Part shown: positions 1 through 36,919 of the stretch, piece after piece
How the letters are laid out: each line of letters opens with the position of its first letter
Numbering within the stretch: position 1 is the stretch's first letter
DNA from: a virus
Strand: one strand, 5' to 3'
Virus record (IMG/VR): IMGVR_UViG_3300042922_000466
Span: 1-39,391 of that record
DNA length: 39,391 nucleotides
The notes under the pieces: model-generated
What the model was told of the DNA's origin: nothing
Database searches by the model: none
What the model saw: the letters and a program-made list of their open reading frames with translations, nothing else
Translations under genes and position numbers: made by a program

Positions 1-44
1 CCCGTGGCTAATTCGTAGTAAACTTTTCTCCCGATCTGTGCCAT
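1..44 (-). CDS. 5' end of the 132-aa tail-module protein (left copy, partial)
   Basis: These are the first codons of the gene that is complete at 38910-39308. The ATG is at 44-42, preceded by a GGAGGTGAG ribosome binding site at about 52-60. The sequence is cut by the window edge only because the circular genome was opened here. It follows the tail fibre gene (stop at 62) by 17 bases in the same late operon. Confidence 0.9.
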   Translation of the reverse strand, partial: MAQIGRKVYYELAT

Positions 45-19160: not shown

Positions 19161-19322
19161 TCAGCTACTTTCTTGCCATGTATAGGTTCTTGTTTGTTCG
19201 ACAAGACGATCATATTTCGCCATTGCAGCGGGACGTTTCGGGTCTGTTGGAGATAACTTCTCGATGAAATTCGCTCCAGCTACGATTCGTTCGAGTAGTT
19301 CCTTATACTCTGTCTCGGTCAT
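19161..19322 (-). CDS. Small protein coupled to primase-helicase, unknown (53 aa)
   Basis: ATG 19322 overlaps the primase-helicase stop as ATGA, with GGAGG six bases before it. The product (TETEYKELLERIVAGANFIEKL, TDPKRPAAMAKYDRLVEQTRTY) is a short helical soluble protein. Its coupling suggests a replication accessory role, but there is no family match I can name. Confidence 0.6.
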   Translation of the reverse strand: MTETEYKELLERIVAGANFIEKLSPTDPKRPAAMAKYDRLVEQTRTYTWQESS

Positions 19323-21445
19323 GTCCCGCCTCCATATCCCTTGCCTGTTCTCTTCGAGTTGCGCCAATTATTAGGCTTTCTATCCTTTGGTTGGAACGAT
19401 CTTTCAGCAGCAGAACGCTTCTGTCCGTCCGTTGCGTCTCCGATTTTCTTGATCATTGGCTCGAAATGAAGCAGGACTTCTCCAATTGGTCCCCAGCGGT
19501 TTTTTAGAATTTGACAATGCATGTCGTTCATTCCGCCCAGACGTTCATTAGGGTCCATCTCGGGGTCTGAGGATGGCCGATAAATCCCAACCATGTAGTC
19601 GCTTGCTTCTTCAATTGCGCCAGTATCTCGAGCCGAGTCCATACGTAATTTTTTTTCTCCCGAACCGCCACCTTCTCGAGTTGACTGCGAAAGCGCGACG
19701 ACGACGCAATTTAATCGTTTCGCTAGGCTTTTCAGTTCACGAGCTCCCTCGGATTTCTCTTCGTATGCCGGGCGCTTCCCAGGAAAACGAATCTGCTGGA
19801 AATAATCAATCACGATAAGGGAAACAGGTTCCCCAAATAGTCGGCCGGCTGCTCGTGCTGTCATCTCAATGTCTTGAAGCGTTTGGCCATCCCGGTCAAC
19901 GAGGCGGAAGCTATTGTCCAAACGCTCATACAATTCCAAGTCTTCAAACGGCTCCCTATCGTTCTTGTACATATCCTCAATTTGCCGCTCTTGCATCTCT
20001 TTAATTATCTGCAGCAATTGGGGAACCACATTTACTCGATGGAGTTCCAGACTGTTGAATACAACACGATGGTTTTGGTTAAAACACGCCTGATAGATCA
20101 GGTTGAGGATAAAGGTTGTCTTACCGCTACCACTCCGTCCGAGTACTGTTCCGACCTCACCGCGCCGCATTCCTCGAATGATGGCATCCAAATCCGTAAG
20201 GCCAAAGAATACTTTCCCCTCATCCCCTTGCTTGACGTATTGTCGGTAGTCATCAAGTGCGGATGAAAACGAAATTAAGTCGTCGTCATAGGACCGAACC
20301 GACCCTGGATCGCTGTTCATCAACTCGTGAACGAGCTCCTTATCCTTGTCCCATCGTTTGACAAGAAAATCAGCCATTTCCGCCCGTATCATCGTGTTCT
20401 TAGTCATTTGTGCAACTTCTCGAGCGACTTCGTACTCATCGTGAATATCGGAACAGCGGTCAATATCATATTTGAGCAGAAACATCTCATGCGGTTCGCC
20501 GCGTAGTTCCTTGAATCGGTCCGTAGCAGACTCATTGTAGTTGATCAAAAAATCATTCATGTCCTTTTCGTCGGCCGGGAGTTGGATAATTCGTATCTGA
20601 TTTCGGACGTGGATGAGGAGTTGATCCACATTCTTTCGAACTGCCGCAAGACCCGTTTCATCGTTATCGGGAATGAGGTATATTTTCGTCTTGGGTGCAA
20701 TGTATTTCCCGATGATGGCTGCTTGGGCATCTGTCAATGTGCTGCCGCAATAGCCAACGGCATTCGGAAATCCCATCTGGTGAAGTGACATGACATCAAA
20801 GTACCCTTCGACGACGTACAACGCATCGTTCATGTGCTTGCGGGCCTTATCCAACCCGAAAAGCAATTCCGATTTCCGGAATGTCTCCGACTCGGCCGCA
20901 TTCTTGTATTTCGGTTCCGCGCCGGGCGTCAAGTAACGGTACGAAATTCCGACGACTTCGCCATAGGTGTTTAAAAATGGAATCGTGAGGCTGTGGTCAT
21001 CCTTGCGATACCCAAGTCCGAATGCTTTGCTCGTCTCCGGTTTAATCCCCCGGTCAATCAAGTACTGGGCTGCATCTCGACCGTCGTTGTAATACTTAAG
21101 TGCCTCGGAACGATTAACGGCAATCCTTTCTTTCCGTTTTGCCCATGCTTCTGTATCGAAGCCGTGGAGCGGAATATCGAAATCTCGTGCGAGTTGTTCA
21201 AGGACTTCGGAAGGGTTCTTTATACCCCGCTCTTGCATCACGTAATCGATGATCGTGCCGCCTGCCTCACACCCGTAGCACTTAAACGTTTTTCGCTCTG
21301 GATCGACTGTAAACGACGGCGTCTTCTCCGAATGGAACGGGCACAGTCCTTTCCACGACTTCCCGGATCGTTTAAGTTGCACCCTTTCTCGCACGTACTG
21401 CATCAGGTCGATTTTTTCCTTGATCAGTTCAAAGTTGTCGGTCAA
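19319..21445 (-). CDS. DNA primase-helicase fusion (CHC2-TOPRIM-DnaB)
   Basis: A 708-aa protein. Residues ~10-70 are a CHC2 zinc finger (GLCPFHSEKTPSF ... KTFKCYGCEAGG). Residues ~120-290 hold the TOPRIM primase core (ALYVVEGYFDVMSLHQMGF and the KIYLIPDNDETG acidic motif). From ~400 comes a DnaB-type helicase with Walker A GRSGSGKT, Walker B VSLIVIDYFQQI and a late ILKNRWGPIG motif. T7 gp4-like fusions both prime and unwind. The TTG start has GGAGG eight bases upstream and overlaps the loader gene stop. It is the main replication enzyme; no phage DNA polymerase is present, so host polymerase is presumably used. Confidence 0.93.
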   Translation of the reverse strand: MTDNFELIKEKIDLMQYVRERVQLKRSGKSWKGLCPFHSEKTPSFTVDPERKTFKCYGCEAGGTIIDYVMQERGIKNPSEVLEQLARDFDIPLHGFDTEAWAKRKERIAVNRSEALKYYNDGRDAAQYLIDRGIKPETSKAFGLGYRKDDHSLTIPFLNTYGEVVGISYRYLTPGAEPKYKNAAESETFRKSELLFGLDKARKHMNDALYVVEGYFDVMSLHQMGFPNAVGYCGSTLTDAQAAIIGKYIAPKTKIYLIPDNDETGLAAVRKNVDQLLIHVRNQIRIIQLPADEKDMNDFLINYNESATDRFKELRGEPHEMFLLKYDIDRCSDIHDEYEVAREVAQMTKNTMIRAEMADFLVKRWDKDKELVHELMNSDPGSVRSYDDDLISFSSALDDYRQYVKQGDEGKVFFGLTDLDAIIRGMRRGEVGTVLGRSGSGKTTFILNLIYQACFNQNHRVVFNSLELHRVNVVPQLLQIIKEMQERQIEDMYKNDREPFEDLELYERLDNSFRLVDRDGQTLQDIEMTARAAGRLFGEPVSLIVIDYFQQIRFPGKRPAYEEKSEGARELKSLAKRLNCVVVALSQSTREGGGSGEKKLRMDSARDTGAIEEASDYMVGIYRPSSDPEMDPNERLGGMNDMHCQILKNRWGPIGEVLLHFEPMIKKIGDATDGQKRSAAERSFQPKDRKPNNWRNSKRTGKGYGGGT

Positions 21446-21990
21446 GGTTCATCCCTCCGTAGAAGGCTCTCGACCCGCTCCGCTGCCTTTTGCAGCATCT
21501 CGTCGATCATCAAAAACCGCCTCGTATTCTGGAATACATGGATGATTGCCATGGACCGGTAGGCTCGCTCTCTCGAAGTAGGTGGGACTGCCAAAACAAA
21601 GTCTTGCAGGGCCGTTTCTACGTCATCTTCTTCGATCGGATCGCCACCAAGTTGATTGGCAAACAGTTTGCAATAGAGCTCCGCATATATCTTTATCTTG
21701 GCTTCATACGACGACTGCTCGCCTACCCTATTCCAGAAGGATTGCATGTCAAGTTGAACCAGATCGTCTATTCGTTTTTCGCGTTTCTCTCGCGCCCTTC
21801 GAATCAAATCCACCGGCTTCAGTGGGTATTCCGATTCACGAAAATGCTCGATAAGATACCCGCGCGCTTCCTCGAAAGGAATCTCTCCTAAGACTTCGGC
21901 CCAGCTTTCCGCAGCTCCCTTTGGCGGCTGGTACGAGGGAACGAAATGGTGCATCAGAATCAGTAGTTTGCCCGCTTCCTCTCTGGTCAT
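21442..21990 (-). CDS. Possible helicase loader (G39P-like N-terminus)
   Basis: A 182-aa protein encoded between the replication initiator and the primase-helicase, overlapping both by four bases. The N-terminal ~70 residues (EEAGKLLILMHHFVPSYQPP, SWAEVLGEIPFEEARGYLIEHF, YPLKPVDLIRRA) match the layout of the SPP1 G39P-type loader/inhibitor N-terminal domain. The C-terminal half is helical with acidic patches. Order initiator-loader-helicase supports the call, but similarity was judged by eye only. Confidence 0.5.
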   Translation of the reverse strand: MTREEAGKLLILMHHFVPSYQPPKGAAESWAEVLGEIPFEEARGYLIEHFRESEYPLKPVDLIRRAREKREKRIDDLVQLDMQSFWNRVGEQSSYEAKIKIYAELYCKLFANQLGGDPIEEDDVETALQDFVLAVPPTSRERAYRSMAIIHVFQNTRRFLMIDEMLQKAAERVESLLRRDEP

Positions 21991-22928
21991 GGACTCTTTT
22001 CATCCTCCCTCAGAGAAGCTAAGTACTCATCTGGATCAAATACGGCCTTCTTCCCCTGTGCCGGTGATTCTTCGCCTCTCAGGCTCGGCAGCTTTCTCTC
22101 TGCCTCTTGCTCAGAGGTATTACGTAGAATCCCGAACGTATACTCCTCTTTCGCCTTTGAATACTCAGGGTTACCCATGTGCGTTCGGATCGCATATTCA
22201 ATGCGGGACGTCGAGTACTTCGCGAAATAATCGTAAATCTTTAATACGGCTTTATCAGACAATAACTTTGCTTTGCGGGTATTGCCGATGAAATCAAGAT
22301 AGGATTCGATTATCAAAACAAGTTCCGACGAGTATCGAGAGCGGAGATTTTGAATATCCGCGGATAAATCTTTTAATACATCATTCTTTACATTCTTTAC
22401 ATTCTTGTTTATATTGTCGGGTGGTCGTTGCCTTCGCGTTGCTTTCGCGTCTTCTTCGGCATTGCTTGCGTCGTCGGTTTCAGCTTCGTGTTCGCCGTTG
22501 CCTTCGTAATTACGAAAATCCTGATATACCCCGTAATTATCAATGGTTATTAGGATGTTGTGCGTTGCTTTCGTCGTCGTAATCATCGTTGCTTTGGTCA
22601 TTGCGTTCGTCGTTGCTTTCATTAGTTCTCCGTGGGGGCTTCGTTGCGATTTCATCGCTTTACCGCGTAAAAACTCTAAAGCTTGAAAAACTTGATCTTT
22701 TGTCGGTCTTTCGACCCTTGCTCCAACCTTCCAAGATACCCCCTCAATGATGTCTGGAATTGAGGTAAGTAGCTGTCCGCGCTTCAACCCTTTGTACTCT
22801 GAATGCTGCGCTTTGGTGAGCAGGAAAAGCCACACCTTCAAATACAAAGGGGGCTTCTCCCATATTTCACTATCCGTAATTTTTCTAGCAACCAAAATGC
22901 ACCCGCCGGGTATCAGAGGACTCTTCAT
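21987..22928 (-). CDS. Replication initiator (winged-helix/DnaD-like)
   Basis: A 313-aa protein. The N-terminus (GGCILVARKITDSEIWEKPPLYLKVWLFLL) and the following residues are the usual opening of Gram-positive phage replisome organisers with a winged-helix DNA-binding domain. Residues ~100-130 are a low-complexity Lys/Ala/Thr/Met stretch and ~140-170 are acidic. The C-terminal part (YDYFAKYSTSRIEYAIRTHMGN) is DnaD-like. The low-complexity coding region contains six iteron-like repeats, as in lambda O. ATG 22928 is chosen with GGAGG eight bases upstream. Confidence 0.78.
   Translation of the reverse strand: MKSPLIPGGCILVARKITDSEIWEKPPLYLKVWLFLLTKAQHSEYKGLKRGQLLTSIPDIIEGVSWKVGARVERPTKDQVFQALEFLRGKAMKSQRSPHGELMKATTNAMTKATMITTTKATHNILITIDNYGVYQDFRNYEGNGEHEAETDDASNAEEDAKATRRQRPPDNINKNVKNVKNDVLKDLSADIQNLRSRYSSELVLIIESYLDFIGNTRKAKLLSDKAVLKIYDYFAKYSTSRIEYAIRTHMGNPEYSKAKEEYTFGILRNTSEQEAERKLPSLRGEESPAQGKKAVFDPDEYLASLREDEKSP
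22426..22621. other. Candidate replication origin with six iterons inside the initiator gene
   Basis: Copies of CGTTGC(C/T)TTCG occur at 22426-22436, 22437-22447, 22496-22506 and 22563-22573, with one-mismatch copies at 22587-22597 and 22611-22621. A T-rich stretch (about 22382-22417) flanks them on the left and could serve as an unwinding element. The arrangement matches origins embedded in phage initiator genes. Confidence 0.55.
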
Positions 22929-22944
22929 CACCATCCCCTCCTAG

Positions 22945-24019: not shown

Positions 24020-24286
24020 TTACAGCCCCCTCCCTAGTTCGATCCCGTCAAGGAGACCGGAGACGTACATTCTGTCTCGCATGAAGCACTCCATCTCAAC
24101 AATTATCCCATCCATTTTTTTTAAAAGCTCATGATGTTCTTCTGGCAAAACGGTCATAACTTTGTCAAAAAGAGAGATGTAGGAATCCTGTAATCCCGTT
24201 CGACGAAGCTCTGTATTCGCTTGTTCTCCCGCTTCGTCAATTCGATTACCTACTGACTTTTTAACAGTCTCAGCAAACTTGGACAT
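24020..24286 (-). CDS. Early protein, unknown (88 aa)
   Basis: An 88-aa helical protein. The second half (LFDKVMTVLPEEHHELLKKMDGI ... YVSGLLDGIELG) resembles the 132-aa neighbour's end (YIAGFIAGYRLL), suggesting related small proteins. It is the first gene after the divergent promoter region at 24316-24364, with GAGGAGG ten bases upstream of ATG, so it may lead the replication operon. Confidence 0.6.
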   Translation of the reverse strand: MSKFAETVKKSVGNRIDEAGEQANTELRRTGLQDSYISLFDKVMTVLPEEHHELLKKMDGIIVEMECFMRDRMYVSGLLDGIELGRGL

Positions 24287-24315
24287 TTATTCCGTTCCTC
24301 CTCTTGGTCGAGGCG

Positions 24316-24364
24316 AAACCCTTGCCAGAATATTGGAGTTTATGTATAATGACGGCAAGGGTTT
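24316..24364. promoter_or_regulatory. Inverted repeat enclosing overlapping divergent promoters
   Basis: AAACCCTTGCC (24316-24326) and GGCAAGGGTTT (24354-24364) are perfect inverted copies separated by 27 bases; outer GAGG/CCTC extend the symmetry. Each arm carries the -35 of a promoter: on plus TTGCCA (24322-24327), 17 bases, TATAAT (24345-24350); on minus TTGCCG (24358-24353), 17 bases, CAATAT (24335-24330). The plus promoter is near consensus. The minus promoter would drive the replication genes. Confidence 0.65.
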
Positions 24365-24425
24365 ATACCTCGGCATTTTACGGATCACCTACGGTTCTTG
24401 GCGGGACTCGGTAGGTGATTTTTCC
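24357..24425 (+). ncRNA. Candidate ~70-nt antisense small RNA
   Basis: Starts about 7 bases after TATAAT (24345-24350) and ends at an intrinsic terminator (ATCACCTAC 24384-24392, GTAGGTGAT 24411-24419, then TTTTCC). No credible ORF lies between. It is antisense to the last codons of the minus-strand 76-aa gene (24389-24619) and to the leader of the next gene. Both promoter and terminator point away from the direction of the surrounding operon. Confidence 0.55.
24384..24425 (+). terminator. Plus-strand intrinsic terminator of the small RNA
   Basis: A perfect 9-bp stem ATCACCTAC/GTAGGTGAT, with an additional inner GTTC/GGAC pairing, is followed by TTTTCCTTTTC on the plus strand. On the minus strand the stem is not followed by a U-tract, so orientation is clear. 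Confidence 0.7.
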
Positions 24426-24619
24426 TTTTCTAGCGAATGGTACAGGTCTGCTTCAAGATTATTAATGCCGGGAATAAGGGCCAACAACCTACGAGCGGCT
24501 TGCTCTCGCGTAACTATTGAGTCATTCACGAGTTGATGGGCGACATTTAGAATTTCTGTTTTAATCTCCGCTATGTCCCGCAAGTCTATGATCCCGGACG
24601 CCAAGCTACTAACCTTCAT
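24389..24619 (-). CDS. Early protein, unknown (76 aa)
   Basis: Starts at ATG 24619 with GGAGG six bases upstream, overlapping the previous gene by 11 bases. The sequence (LRDIAEIKTEILNVAHQLVN, TREQAARRLLALIPGINNLE) is helical and soluble with an acidic/basic tail. Its 3' end is covered by the antisense terminator. The function is unknown. Confidence 0.6.
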   Translation of the reverse strand: MKVSSLASGIIDLRDIAEIKTEILNVAHQLVNDSIVTREQAARRLLALIPGINNLEADLYHSLEKEKSPTESRQEP

Positions 24620-25788: not shown

Positions 25789-26343
25789 CTACGCACCTCC
25801 CATAACCGCCTGCAGTTGCCTTTGACTCCGTCGGAGGATCCGGCTCACGCTGACCTGCCTCATTCCCAACCGATCCCCGATTTCCCGCTGCGAGAAGCCT
25901 TTCATCCTTAACTGAAAAATCTTAATGTCTCGCTTGTGGAACATGCGTTGCAGGGTCACCATCAAATCAACGGCTCCGTATTCTGCCGCCGGACCTTCGA
26001 TCGTCTCCATGAGCGTGAACTCGCCGTCATAAACTGGTTTTTCGAGATTTTCGATTTTTCCTATGCGTTTCGATAGCGGAACTTCCTTGTGCAGCCGCAA
26101 CGGCGATAAGTGGTCCCGCAAGAAATGACGCAATCCACCAAGAATGTAGGTGCCGGCATAAGTTGAAAACTCAAACCCTCGTGTCGGGTCGAACCGCCGA
26201 GCTGCTTGGAGCAGCTGGAGGGACCCTACTTGCTCCAAGTCTTCGCGATCGAAGGCAGACGATACGTGCCAGTAGTGCCGAAACCGATTGACAAAGTAAT
26301 AGACCAGATATTCGTACTTCTCGATGATTTCGTCTTCCGTCAC
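25789..26343 (-). CDS. Phage sigma factor (sigma-70 family)
   Basis: A 184-aa protein. Residues ~1-85 are sigma region 2 (VYYFVNRFRHYW, DLEQVGSLQLLQAARRFDPTRGFEFSTYAGTYILGGLRHFLRDH), with the conserved GFEFSTYA core-binding/-10 region. Residues ~130-180 are region 4 (RDIKIFQLRMKGFSQREIGDRLGMRQVSVSRILRRSQ), a helix-turn-helix for -35 recognition. It resembles the sigma-B/F/G group. It is made early and may redirect host RNA polymerase to middle or late phage promoters. The GTG start has only a distant GGGAG site, so the initiation codon is moderately certain. Confidence 0.88.
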   Translation of the reverse strand: MTEDEIIEKYEYLVYYFVNRFRHYWHVSSAFDREDLEQVGSLQLLQAARRFDPTRGFEFSTYAGTYILGGLRHFLRDHLSPLRLHKEVPLSKRIGKIENLEKPVYDGEFTLMETIEGPAAEYGAVDLMVTLQRMFHKRDIKIFQLRMKGFSQREIGDRLGMRQVSVSRILRRSQRQLQAVMGGA

Positions 26344-29681: not shown

Positions 29682-29854
29682 CACACCCAAAGCAGCCACC
29701 ACCCTACGCACGCCAGCGTGCCAAGCGCGACGACATACCACGCGGCAAGGGTTTGCTTCCTCTGACTCCGGACAGGCTCCTCAGCGACGTGCACGGCTTT
29801 GGGACGGCCGTCTAGTGTGTATCGGATGCGGTAAACGGTTTGACGATCTTGCAT
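29681..29854 (-). CDS. Small membrane protein, unknown (57 aa)
   Basis: ATG 29854 with GGAG nine bases upstream. The first 35 residues are basic and polar (QDRQTVYRIRYTLDGRPKAV), followed by one C-terminal transmembrane helix (TLAAWYVVALGTLACVGWWL). It is translationally coupled to the DUF7667-like gene. ATATG-CGGT-CATAT (29889-29902) lies upstream and may be an operator for the XRE regulator encoded next to it. Confidence 0.6.
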   Translation of the reverse strand: MQDRQTVYRIRYTLDGRPKAVHVAEEPVRSQRKQTLAAWYVVALGTLACVGWWLLWV

Positions 29855-35797: not shown

Positions 35798-36637
35798 CTA
35801 AAAGTATTTGCGATACAGTTCTCGGCGGCGCTCACCACTCAGTTGGGCGTAAATCCGCGTCGTCTCCGACTTGGTATGGCCAAGGAACTCCTGAACCGCT
35901 TCCAGAGGAGCGCCATTATTCAGCAGGTGGGTCGCGTAGGAATGACGCAGCTTGTGTGGATAGACGTTGACGGTAATGCCGGCGCGCTTGGCGATCCGCT
36001 TGATGACATTCCGAATTTGCGCGATGGACATCCGGTGCGGTGCCCGCTCAGTGACAAAAAGCGCAACGTCTTGGTCCTTCCGGATCCTCAGGTACTTTCG
36101 CAGCCAGATCGAGCATTTGGTCGTGAAGTAGACTTCTCGCTCCTTGTCGCCCTTCCCACGAACCACCATGGCCCGTTTTTCCCAGTCCATAGCGTTACGA
36201 TTTAAACTGGCTATCTCGCCAATCCGGCAGCCGGTCGTATACAGCACTTCCACCAGCGCGTGCTCGAGCGCCGATTGGCACGCCTCGCGCAGCAACTCCA
36301 CGTCTTCCTCATTTAGTGCCTTCGGTATTCGTCCGCCCTGCTTCGGCTCCTTCAGCTTGGAAGTTGGGTTTGGGTAGACATAACCTTCATCCATGGCCCA
36401 TCGGAAAAGTGACTTAAGAAAACGGATGCGGTGACCAAGACTAGACGGCTTGAGTCGGGCCGCGTCTTTAGCTAGGTATGCCTTCAACTGCTCGAGCGTA
36501 ACAGATTTGATATCAACGTCTCCGAAATGGCGGATCAAGAGATTAGACTGTAGTCGGTAGGCTTTCAGTGTAAATGGCGAGTATCCTTCGATTCGCTTCT
36601 CGGATTCGTATTGCGACCAGGCTTCGGTGAGTTTCAC
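35798..36637 (-). CDS. Second tyrosine recombinase, XerC/D-like
   Basis: A 279-aa protein of Xer size. The core-binding domain is YSPFTLKAYRLQSNLLIRHF ... LGHRIRFLKSLFRWAMDEGY. All catalytic residues are present: Arg in YTTGCRIGEIASL, Lys in VVRGKGDKER, H-x-x-R in YPHKLRHSYATHLL, His in FLGHTKSETTRIYAQL with the Tyr. The GTG start overlaps the 67-aa gene stop as GTGA. It lies inside the late region but in its own transcription unit with an RHH-repressed promoter. Its target site was not identified. Confidence 0.92.
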   Translation of the reverse strand: MKLTEAWSQYESEKRIEGYSPFTLKAYRLQSNLLIRHFGDVDIKSVTLEQLKAYLAKDAARLKPSSLGHRIRFLKSLFRWAMDEGYVYPNPTSKLKEPKQGGRIPKALNEEDVELLREACQSALEHALVEVLYTTGCRIGEIASLNRNAMDWEKRAMVVRGKGDKEREVYFTTKCSIWLRKYLRIRKDQDVALFVTERAPHRMSIAQIRNVIKRIAKRAGITVNVYPHKLRHSYATHLLNNGAPLEAVQEFLGHTKSETTRIYAQLSGERRRELYRKYF

Positions 36638-36837: not shown

Positions 36838-36857
36838 AGTACTCTTCCTCCTCAAAA

Positions 36858-36919
36858 GTTATATAACCAATATAACCTTGGCACAAGCCGTTGTCAATAT
36901 AGGTTATATAACTTATAAT
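36858..36919. promoter_or_regulatory. Divergent RHH-controlled promoters with palindromic operators
   Basis: Plus promoter TTGTCA (36891-36896), 17 bases, TATAAT (36914-36919). Minus promoter TTGACA (36897-36892), 17 bases, TATATT (36874-36869). The two -35 boxes overlap. GTTATATAAC occurs at 36858-36867 (start region of the minus transcript) and at 36903-36912 (spacer of the plus promoter); a half copy AATATAACC lies at 36869-36877. The layout suits autoregulation by the RHH protein. Confidence 0.85.

Follow-up and report, generated by a model that had tools for sequence, protein, structure and literature searches.

In phage lambda, the pO-oop-tO unit specifies OOP, an antisense RNA of 77 nt that has a promoter and an intrinsic terminator of its own and is located just ahead of genes O and P. 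OOP overlaps the 3′ end of the early regulator gene cII by 52-55 nt and acts through RNase III-dependent decay (PMC5869508; PMC12197685). The promoter pO has a LexA site (PMC5869508). Short antisense RNAs also precede the replication genes of plasmids of the R1, pIP501 and ColE1 types, with pMV158 RNAII as a simple case. In these kissing-loop systems a terminator hairpin presents a small recognition loop, with a YUNR loop on one strand, which may be either the sense or the antisense loop (PMC4485353). Small antisense RNAs are further encoded in the regulatory regions of temperate phages, P22 sar among them, and the examples drawn on here from the review PMC12197685 belong to phages of Gram-negative hosts.

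Here we analyzed a 39,391-base virus record (the window, by which we mean this whole stretch of DNA), in which the early genes, at approximately 19.3-26.9 kb, lie on the minus strand. Our findings make it likely that an element within them is a conserved gene for a cis-antisense RNA in temperate phages of Paenibacillaceae, working like lambda OOP RNA. As in lambda, a short RNA with its own sigma-70 promoter and intrinsic terminator is predicted to run against the early operon, to fold into two hairpins, to overlap the end of the upstream gene and to lie between that gene and the genes for the initiator and helicase. The predicted overlap is 36 nt in the window, and the element has both a UUGGC/GCCAA loop and a long inverted repeat around its promoter, whereas lambda oop has neither. 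We found no homology of sequence or structure to lambda oop, and a covariance model built from 21 members (R2) gave no match in lambda positions 38000-39700 at E-values up to 10. Thus the element appears OOP-like in its working, while homology to OOP is not demonstrated.

The likeness to the plasmid RNAs lies in the position before replication genes, in the terminator hairpin with its small recognition loop and in the YUNR loop, which is UUGGCG in the window RNA; in the other members it is the complementary target loop that carries UUGGC. Unlike the plasmid RNAs, however, the element belongs to phages and lies mainly over the 3′ end of a gene rather than over a rep leader only, and kissing is here a prediction. 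P22 sar is likewise a small antisense RNA of a temperate phage regulatory region, but its gene position and target differ from those of the element. Rfam 15, at the gathering score, had no match in the window and no relevant match in 13 member loci. The open-access literature that we searched contained no description of the element.

Promoter, inverted repeat and terminator in the window

The 11-bp sequence AAACCCTTGCC is followed by its exact reverse complement, and outer arms of CGAGG and CCTCG extend the repeat (Table 1), in agreement with the perfect inverted repeat and its GAGG/CCTC extension reported in the first-pass annotation. A near-consensus promoter with a 17-bp spacer, directed against the operon as had been proposed, matches the consensus at 11 of 12 positions. 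Sites of the form TTG(A/C)CA-16..18-TATAAT occur once in the 39-kb window, compared with a mean of 0.045 per window after dinucleotide shuffling, and both the TTG and the -10 region of this promoter are conserved across the 21 members. The 11-bp inverted repeat by itself is weak evidence, since 23% of shuffled windows contain at least one. Rather, the case rests on inverted repeat, promoter and terminator together, and on the conservation of that combination. A third exact copy of AAACCCTTGCC is present at 29744-29754 on the minus strand, outside the element and apparently without a promoter context.

The inverted repeat had also been thought to enclose two promoters facing away from each other. 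The plus-strand promoter is confirmed; its minus-strand partner is not supported. On that side the window has 7-8 of 12 consensus matches, which is at shuffle level, and the 21 members average 7.5 of 12 versus 6.9 for shuffled sequences (9.8 on the plus side). A symmetric divergent promoter is therefore not supported, the oppositely directed second promoter being neither conserved nor above background.

A plus-strand terminator had been placed about 70 nt past the promoter, and there we found a stem followed by TTTTT. The hairpin starts approximately 27 nt past the likely RNA start, and a folding energy of -25.7 kcal/mol (z -4.1) was calculated for the predicted RNA (24354-24424). Our simple terminator scan, which considered loops of up to 8 nt only, missed this terminator because of that ceiling.

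Table 1 Features of the element and its neighboring genes in the window.
Feature	Position	Strand	Remarks
Left arm of inverted repeat	24316-24326		Holds most of the -35; arms covary
Right arm of inverted repeat	24354-24364		Predicted RNA 5′ end; arms covary
Outer left arm, CGAGG	24309-24313		CCTCG on the minus strand; complements outer right arm and Shine-Dalgarno site
Outer right arm, CCTCG	24368-24372		
Sigma-70-type promoter of the antisense RNA	24322-24350	+	-35 TTGCCA 24322-24327; 17-bp spacer; -10 TATAAT 24345-24350
Predicted small antisense RNA, ~68-71 nt	24357-24425	+	Start 24354-24357, end 24423-24425, as predicted from promoter and terminator
Intrinsic terminator hairpin	24384-24423	+	Stem ATCACCTAC/GTAGGTGAT (24384-24392/24411-24419), then TTTTT
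Apical loop, UUGGCG	24398-24403	+	Exact reverse complement of the relatives' CGCCAA loop core; fits YUNR
76-aa early gene, presumed target	24389-24619	-	Good ribosome site; last 36 nt covered by the predicted RNA
Shine-Dalgarno GAGGAGG of downstream gene	24297-24303	-	Similar position in relatives
88-aa gene	24020-24286	-	Begins just past left arm; first gene towards replication
DnaD-like initiator/helicase loader (PHROG 2514)	21987-22934	-	Homologous genes in most members
Helicase loader (PHROG 2289)	21442-21990	-	
Primase-helicase	19319-21445	-	

Relatives in Paenibacillaceae genomes and phages

We searched for relatives of the element by several routes. Neighboring genes and the primase-helicase, queried against viral and genome collections, led to no close relatives, and an integrase search pointed to two Paenibacillus genomes, which were taken as the search center. 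A search with 161 bases of DNA against 399 Paenibacillales genomes yielded one distant copy, in prophage G091, with 78% identity in the promoter region. The whole architecture is repeated there with a different terminator stem, and the gene downstream is distantly related to the DUF6809-like gene of the window. A third copy, G226, was found among loci fetched for another neighboring gene. With the window, G091 and G226 as seeds, a covariance model matched 21 of 390 Paenibacillaceae genomes at E-values up to 0.05, which are rough because calibration was short, and 14 copies in 12 of these genomes were accepted after inspection. A hairpin pattern search added viral contigs with the element. When the element of the window or of G091 served as DNA query, named phages gave no match. 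The named Paenibacillus phage Pd_22F (MZ092003) does carry the element, at 21754-21914, as a DNA search showed, and the RNA is unannotated there. In a Bacilli-wide search of 198 genomes, the sole convincing matches were the previously known G091 and G126. The genomes in these large searches were a sample.

Several candidates were rejected. The exact inverted-repeat pattern had 10 matches in viral contigs, in unrelated contexts and at about the number expected by chance, and an inverted-repeat pattern search of a host family returned near-identical 41-nt matches in 10 genomes that were unlike the promoter unit. The terminator match at L034 was a chance one inside a coding gene, and the model matches at L088, L092, L093 and L095-L099 were terminators without promoter unit or loop. 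G331 (L091/L114), with the loop present and no clear promoter, was left out, and G623, G640, G671 and G596 from the Bacilli-wide search were rejected on inspection. In G696 (L129/L133) a similar hairpin loop (GTCCTGCCAGAC) follows what resembles a promoter; its surroundings are host genes rather than a phage, and it was not counted. Three further divergent copies, identified on visual inspection by their promoter, arms and loop, lie outside the 21, at L040:3103-3230, L041:2837-2965 and L048:1007-1138 (R2 scores of 62.8, 23.3 and 28.0 bits, respectively).

Conservation of the hairpins and the apical loop

The 21 distinct members, window included, were aligned without structure guidance. All share the same architecture, in which a promoter, contained in a covarying inverted repeat, is followed after approximately 25 nt by a terminator hairpin. 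In the proposed structure 81.7% of cells pair, and 15 of its 27 pairs have changes on both sides. Double-changed cells number 47, compared with 20.2 in shuffled alignments (0 of 500 shuffles) and 8-27 in a control with the partner slid by 1-3 columns; because the members are related, these counts are inflated by kinship and do not represent independent events. Helix 2, the terminator, is 91.7% paired, with 6 double-changed pairs. Its stem contains 23 wobbles of the plus-strand type and none of the minus-strand type, so selection acts on the plus-strand terminator hairpin as RNA.

The arms of the inverted repeat covary as well, so far that V120 has arms that are almost unrelated. Their mismatches are mixed (29 minus-strand wobbles, 19 plus-strand wobbles and 44 others), so the arms could act on either strand. 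The first-pass annotation had envisaged a dual-site regulator bound to both arms, and the repeat could indeed be an operator pair through which a phage regulator represses the plus promoter, leaving the RNA as a by-product or a second output. The -35 and the start site are overlapped by the arms, which remain complementary even as their sequence changes, as would operators that co-evolve with a repressor. However, they are absent as repeats in the early/immunity region, where operators would be expected to recur, and elsewhere they recurred twice versus 4.4 times expected in the 10 phages where this test ran, so the dual-site regulator found no positive support. Furthermore, one-sided bulges and the mixed, partly wobble-type mismatches often make the two arm copies differ, as would be expected of a hairpin more than of a duplicated operator, and operators would leave the conservation of loop and terminator unexplained. 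We consider an operator pair unlikely.

All 20 relatives of the window have GCCAA in the terminator loop, where the window itself has UUGGC, the exact reverse complement. In 19 of these 20, GCCAA stands directly in the aligned loop block and is followed by A or G; in G435 it is shifted by one base. The bases that flank the window loop (GTCCCGCCAAGA) are likewise inverted relative to the relatives. The window, one of the three model seeds, is a divergent member, with an inverted loop and an upstream gene that has neither a known domain nor the LAGR tail described below. Its six-base loop is the exact reverse complement of the loops in L056, L079-L094 and L118-L124. Given these opposite loops, the RNAs of two such phages could pair in trans.

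This loop conservation also bears on whether the RNA could be inert, with the element serving as a strand-directed insulator whose terminator blocks stray plus-strand transcription and whose promoter acts by transcriptional interference. Such a role would suit a strong terminator directly past a promoter and convergent transcription within an operon. Yet termination needs neither the apical loop nor its flanking bases, both of which are conserved up to reverse complement, and we regard an insulator as improbable.

Finally, the hairpin could be conserved for the protein that it encodes, and the RNA reading be coincidental, because in 16 of the 21 members it codes for a C-terminal tail of early regulators (..LN.SLAGR) or a close variant. 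This explanation, to which we assign very little probability, was rejected, as it is largely refuted by G091, G435 and G126, where the upstream gene stops before the hairpin and the non-coding hairpin keeps its GCCAA loop. In addition, the window encodes the unrelated tail KSPTESRQEP, the stem wobbles are exclusively of the plus-strand type, and conservation extends beyond the coding region to promoter and inverted repeat. Since non-coding hairpins keep the loop and the window tail differs, the conserved unit is the RNA and not the peptide. A KNHLNLSLAGR- or LNNTLAGR-like tail is common to different early phage proteins (L077:5696-6157, L102, L105-L109, L111, L113, L119, L120, L122 and Pd_22F QVQ56189), because the terminator hairpin is built into the ends of their genes.

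Gene context and proposed mode of action

The predicted RNA ends inside the minus-strand 76-aa gene and would therefore be antisense to its 3′ end. For 17 of the 21 members, the end of the upstream early gene falls within the hairpin, between -34 and -43 relative to the end of the element. Of 10 upstream proteins scanned, 7 match Cro/CI-type HTH models (one weakly); an eighth has a weak match to a non-HTH phage model only and was left out of this count, and the small proteins match no HTH model. In at least three members the predicted RNA does not reach the upstream gene, and the description as antisense to a regulator thus does not hold for the whole family. Conservation at 20 further loci in phages or prophages nonetheless gives good sequence-level support to the earlier proposal that a short RNA from the plus strand is antisense to the end of an early gene.

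The position ahead of the replication genes, also pointed out previously, holds for almost the whole family, the window included. Genes for a DnaD/O-like initiator, a helicase loader and/or DnaB follow 0.3-4 kb downstream of the element in the direction of the operon, and synteny played no part in the member search. The initiator of G091 matches Pfam Phage_rep_O (the lambda O family) and that of Pd_22F matches Lin1244_N. Promoter, terminator, their conservation, the selected strand of the terminator hairpin and this synteny can all be read from the DNA itself. Other features of the window include a primase fused to a DnaB-type helicase (708 aa), related prophages having separate DnaB genes, and a sigma-70-like factor (Sigma70_r2, PHROG 351) encoded in the early region at 25789-26343 on the minus strand. 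A second tyrosine-recombinase-like gene (35798-36637, minus strand), weakly similar to the L056 and L077 integrases, is adjoined by a perfect long inverted repeat (36856-36914).

Most likely, the element produces a cis-antisense RNA that dampens expression of the upstream gene and affects the replication operon, probably with loop-loop pairing as the start. From the sigma-70-type promoter within the inverted repeat, an RNA of approximately 70 nt would be transcribed against the early operon and would stop at the intrinsic terminator embedded in the 3′-terminal part of the upstream early gene. Its apical loop (UUGGCG in the window, CGCCAA elsewhere) would pair first with the complementary loop of the early mRNA, and a full RNA-mRNA duplex would follow. 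Cutting of the duplex, for which RNase III is the obvious candidate, would then lead to less of the upstream gene product. The RNA may also capture the 5′ arm of a long hairpin before the next gene, altering expression towards initiator and helicase. In this scheme we infer transcription, loop pairing, target, cleavage, direction of effect and the role of the inverted repeat.

It is possible, if doubtful, that the main function is instead a translational switch. Here, the left arm of the minus-strand hairpin would be an anti-Shine-Dalgarno sequence; the RNA would take the right arm, and the left arm, once freed, would block the ribosome site belonging to the first gene towards replication. The outer left arm complements both the right arm and the Shine-Dalgarno site in many members (G091, G259, G281, G517, V120 and the window). 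The predicted mean probability that the ribosome site is unpaired falls from 0.45 to 0.30 with the RNA bound, with a clear predicted drop below shuffled arms in G259, G281, V121 and V124. However, shuffled arms give 0.39, the predicted direction of change is found in only 13 of 20 members, and the ribosome site of the window is already paired without the RNA in a fold of the whole leader. A universal Shine-Dalgarno switch is thus borne out only in part, and we rejected it. An effect of the leader hairpin on the next gene is a plausible second effect of the cis-antisense RNA, a possibility rather than a finding.

A more elaborate version, which we consider rather unlikely, would combine these effects in a three-part switch, in a new family of antisense RNAs of Firmicutes phages that independently arrived at the cII-oop-O layout of lambda. 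The RNA would destroy the message of the upstream regulator and flip the long leader hairpin, whose freed arm would then block the ribosome site in front of the first gene towards replication. The recognition loop could lie on either strand, so that RNAs of phages with opposite loops could pair in doubly infected cells.

If expressed, the element would be an unannotated regulatory RNA, absent from Rfam, at the junction between regulator and replication genes in many Paenibacillus phages. It would extend the lambda layout beyond lambdoid phages without sequence kinship, and would suggest that antisense control between regulator and initiator is a recurrent solution. It would also provide a small, testable system with natural variation, in the inversion of the loop and in members with and without gene overlap.
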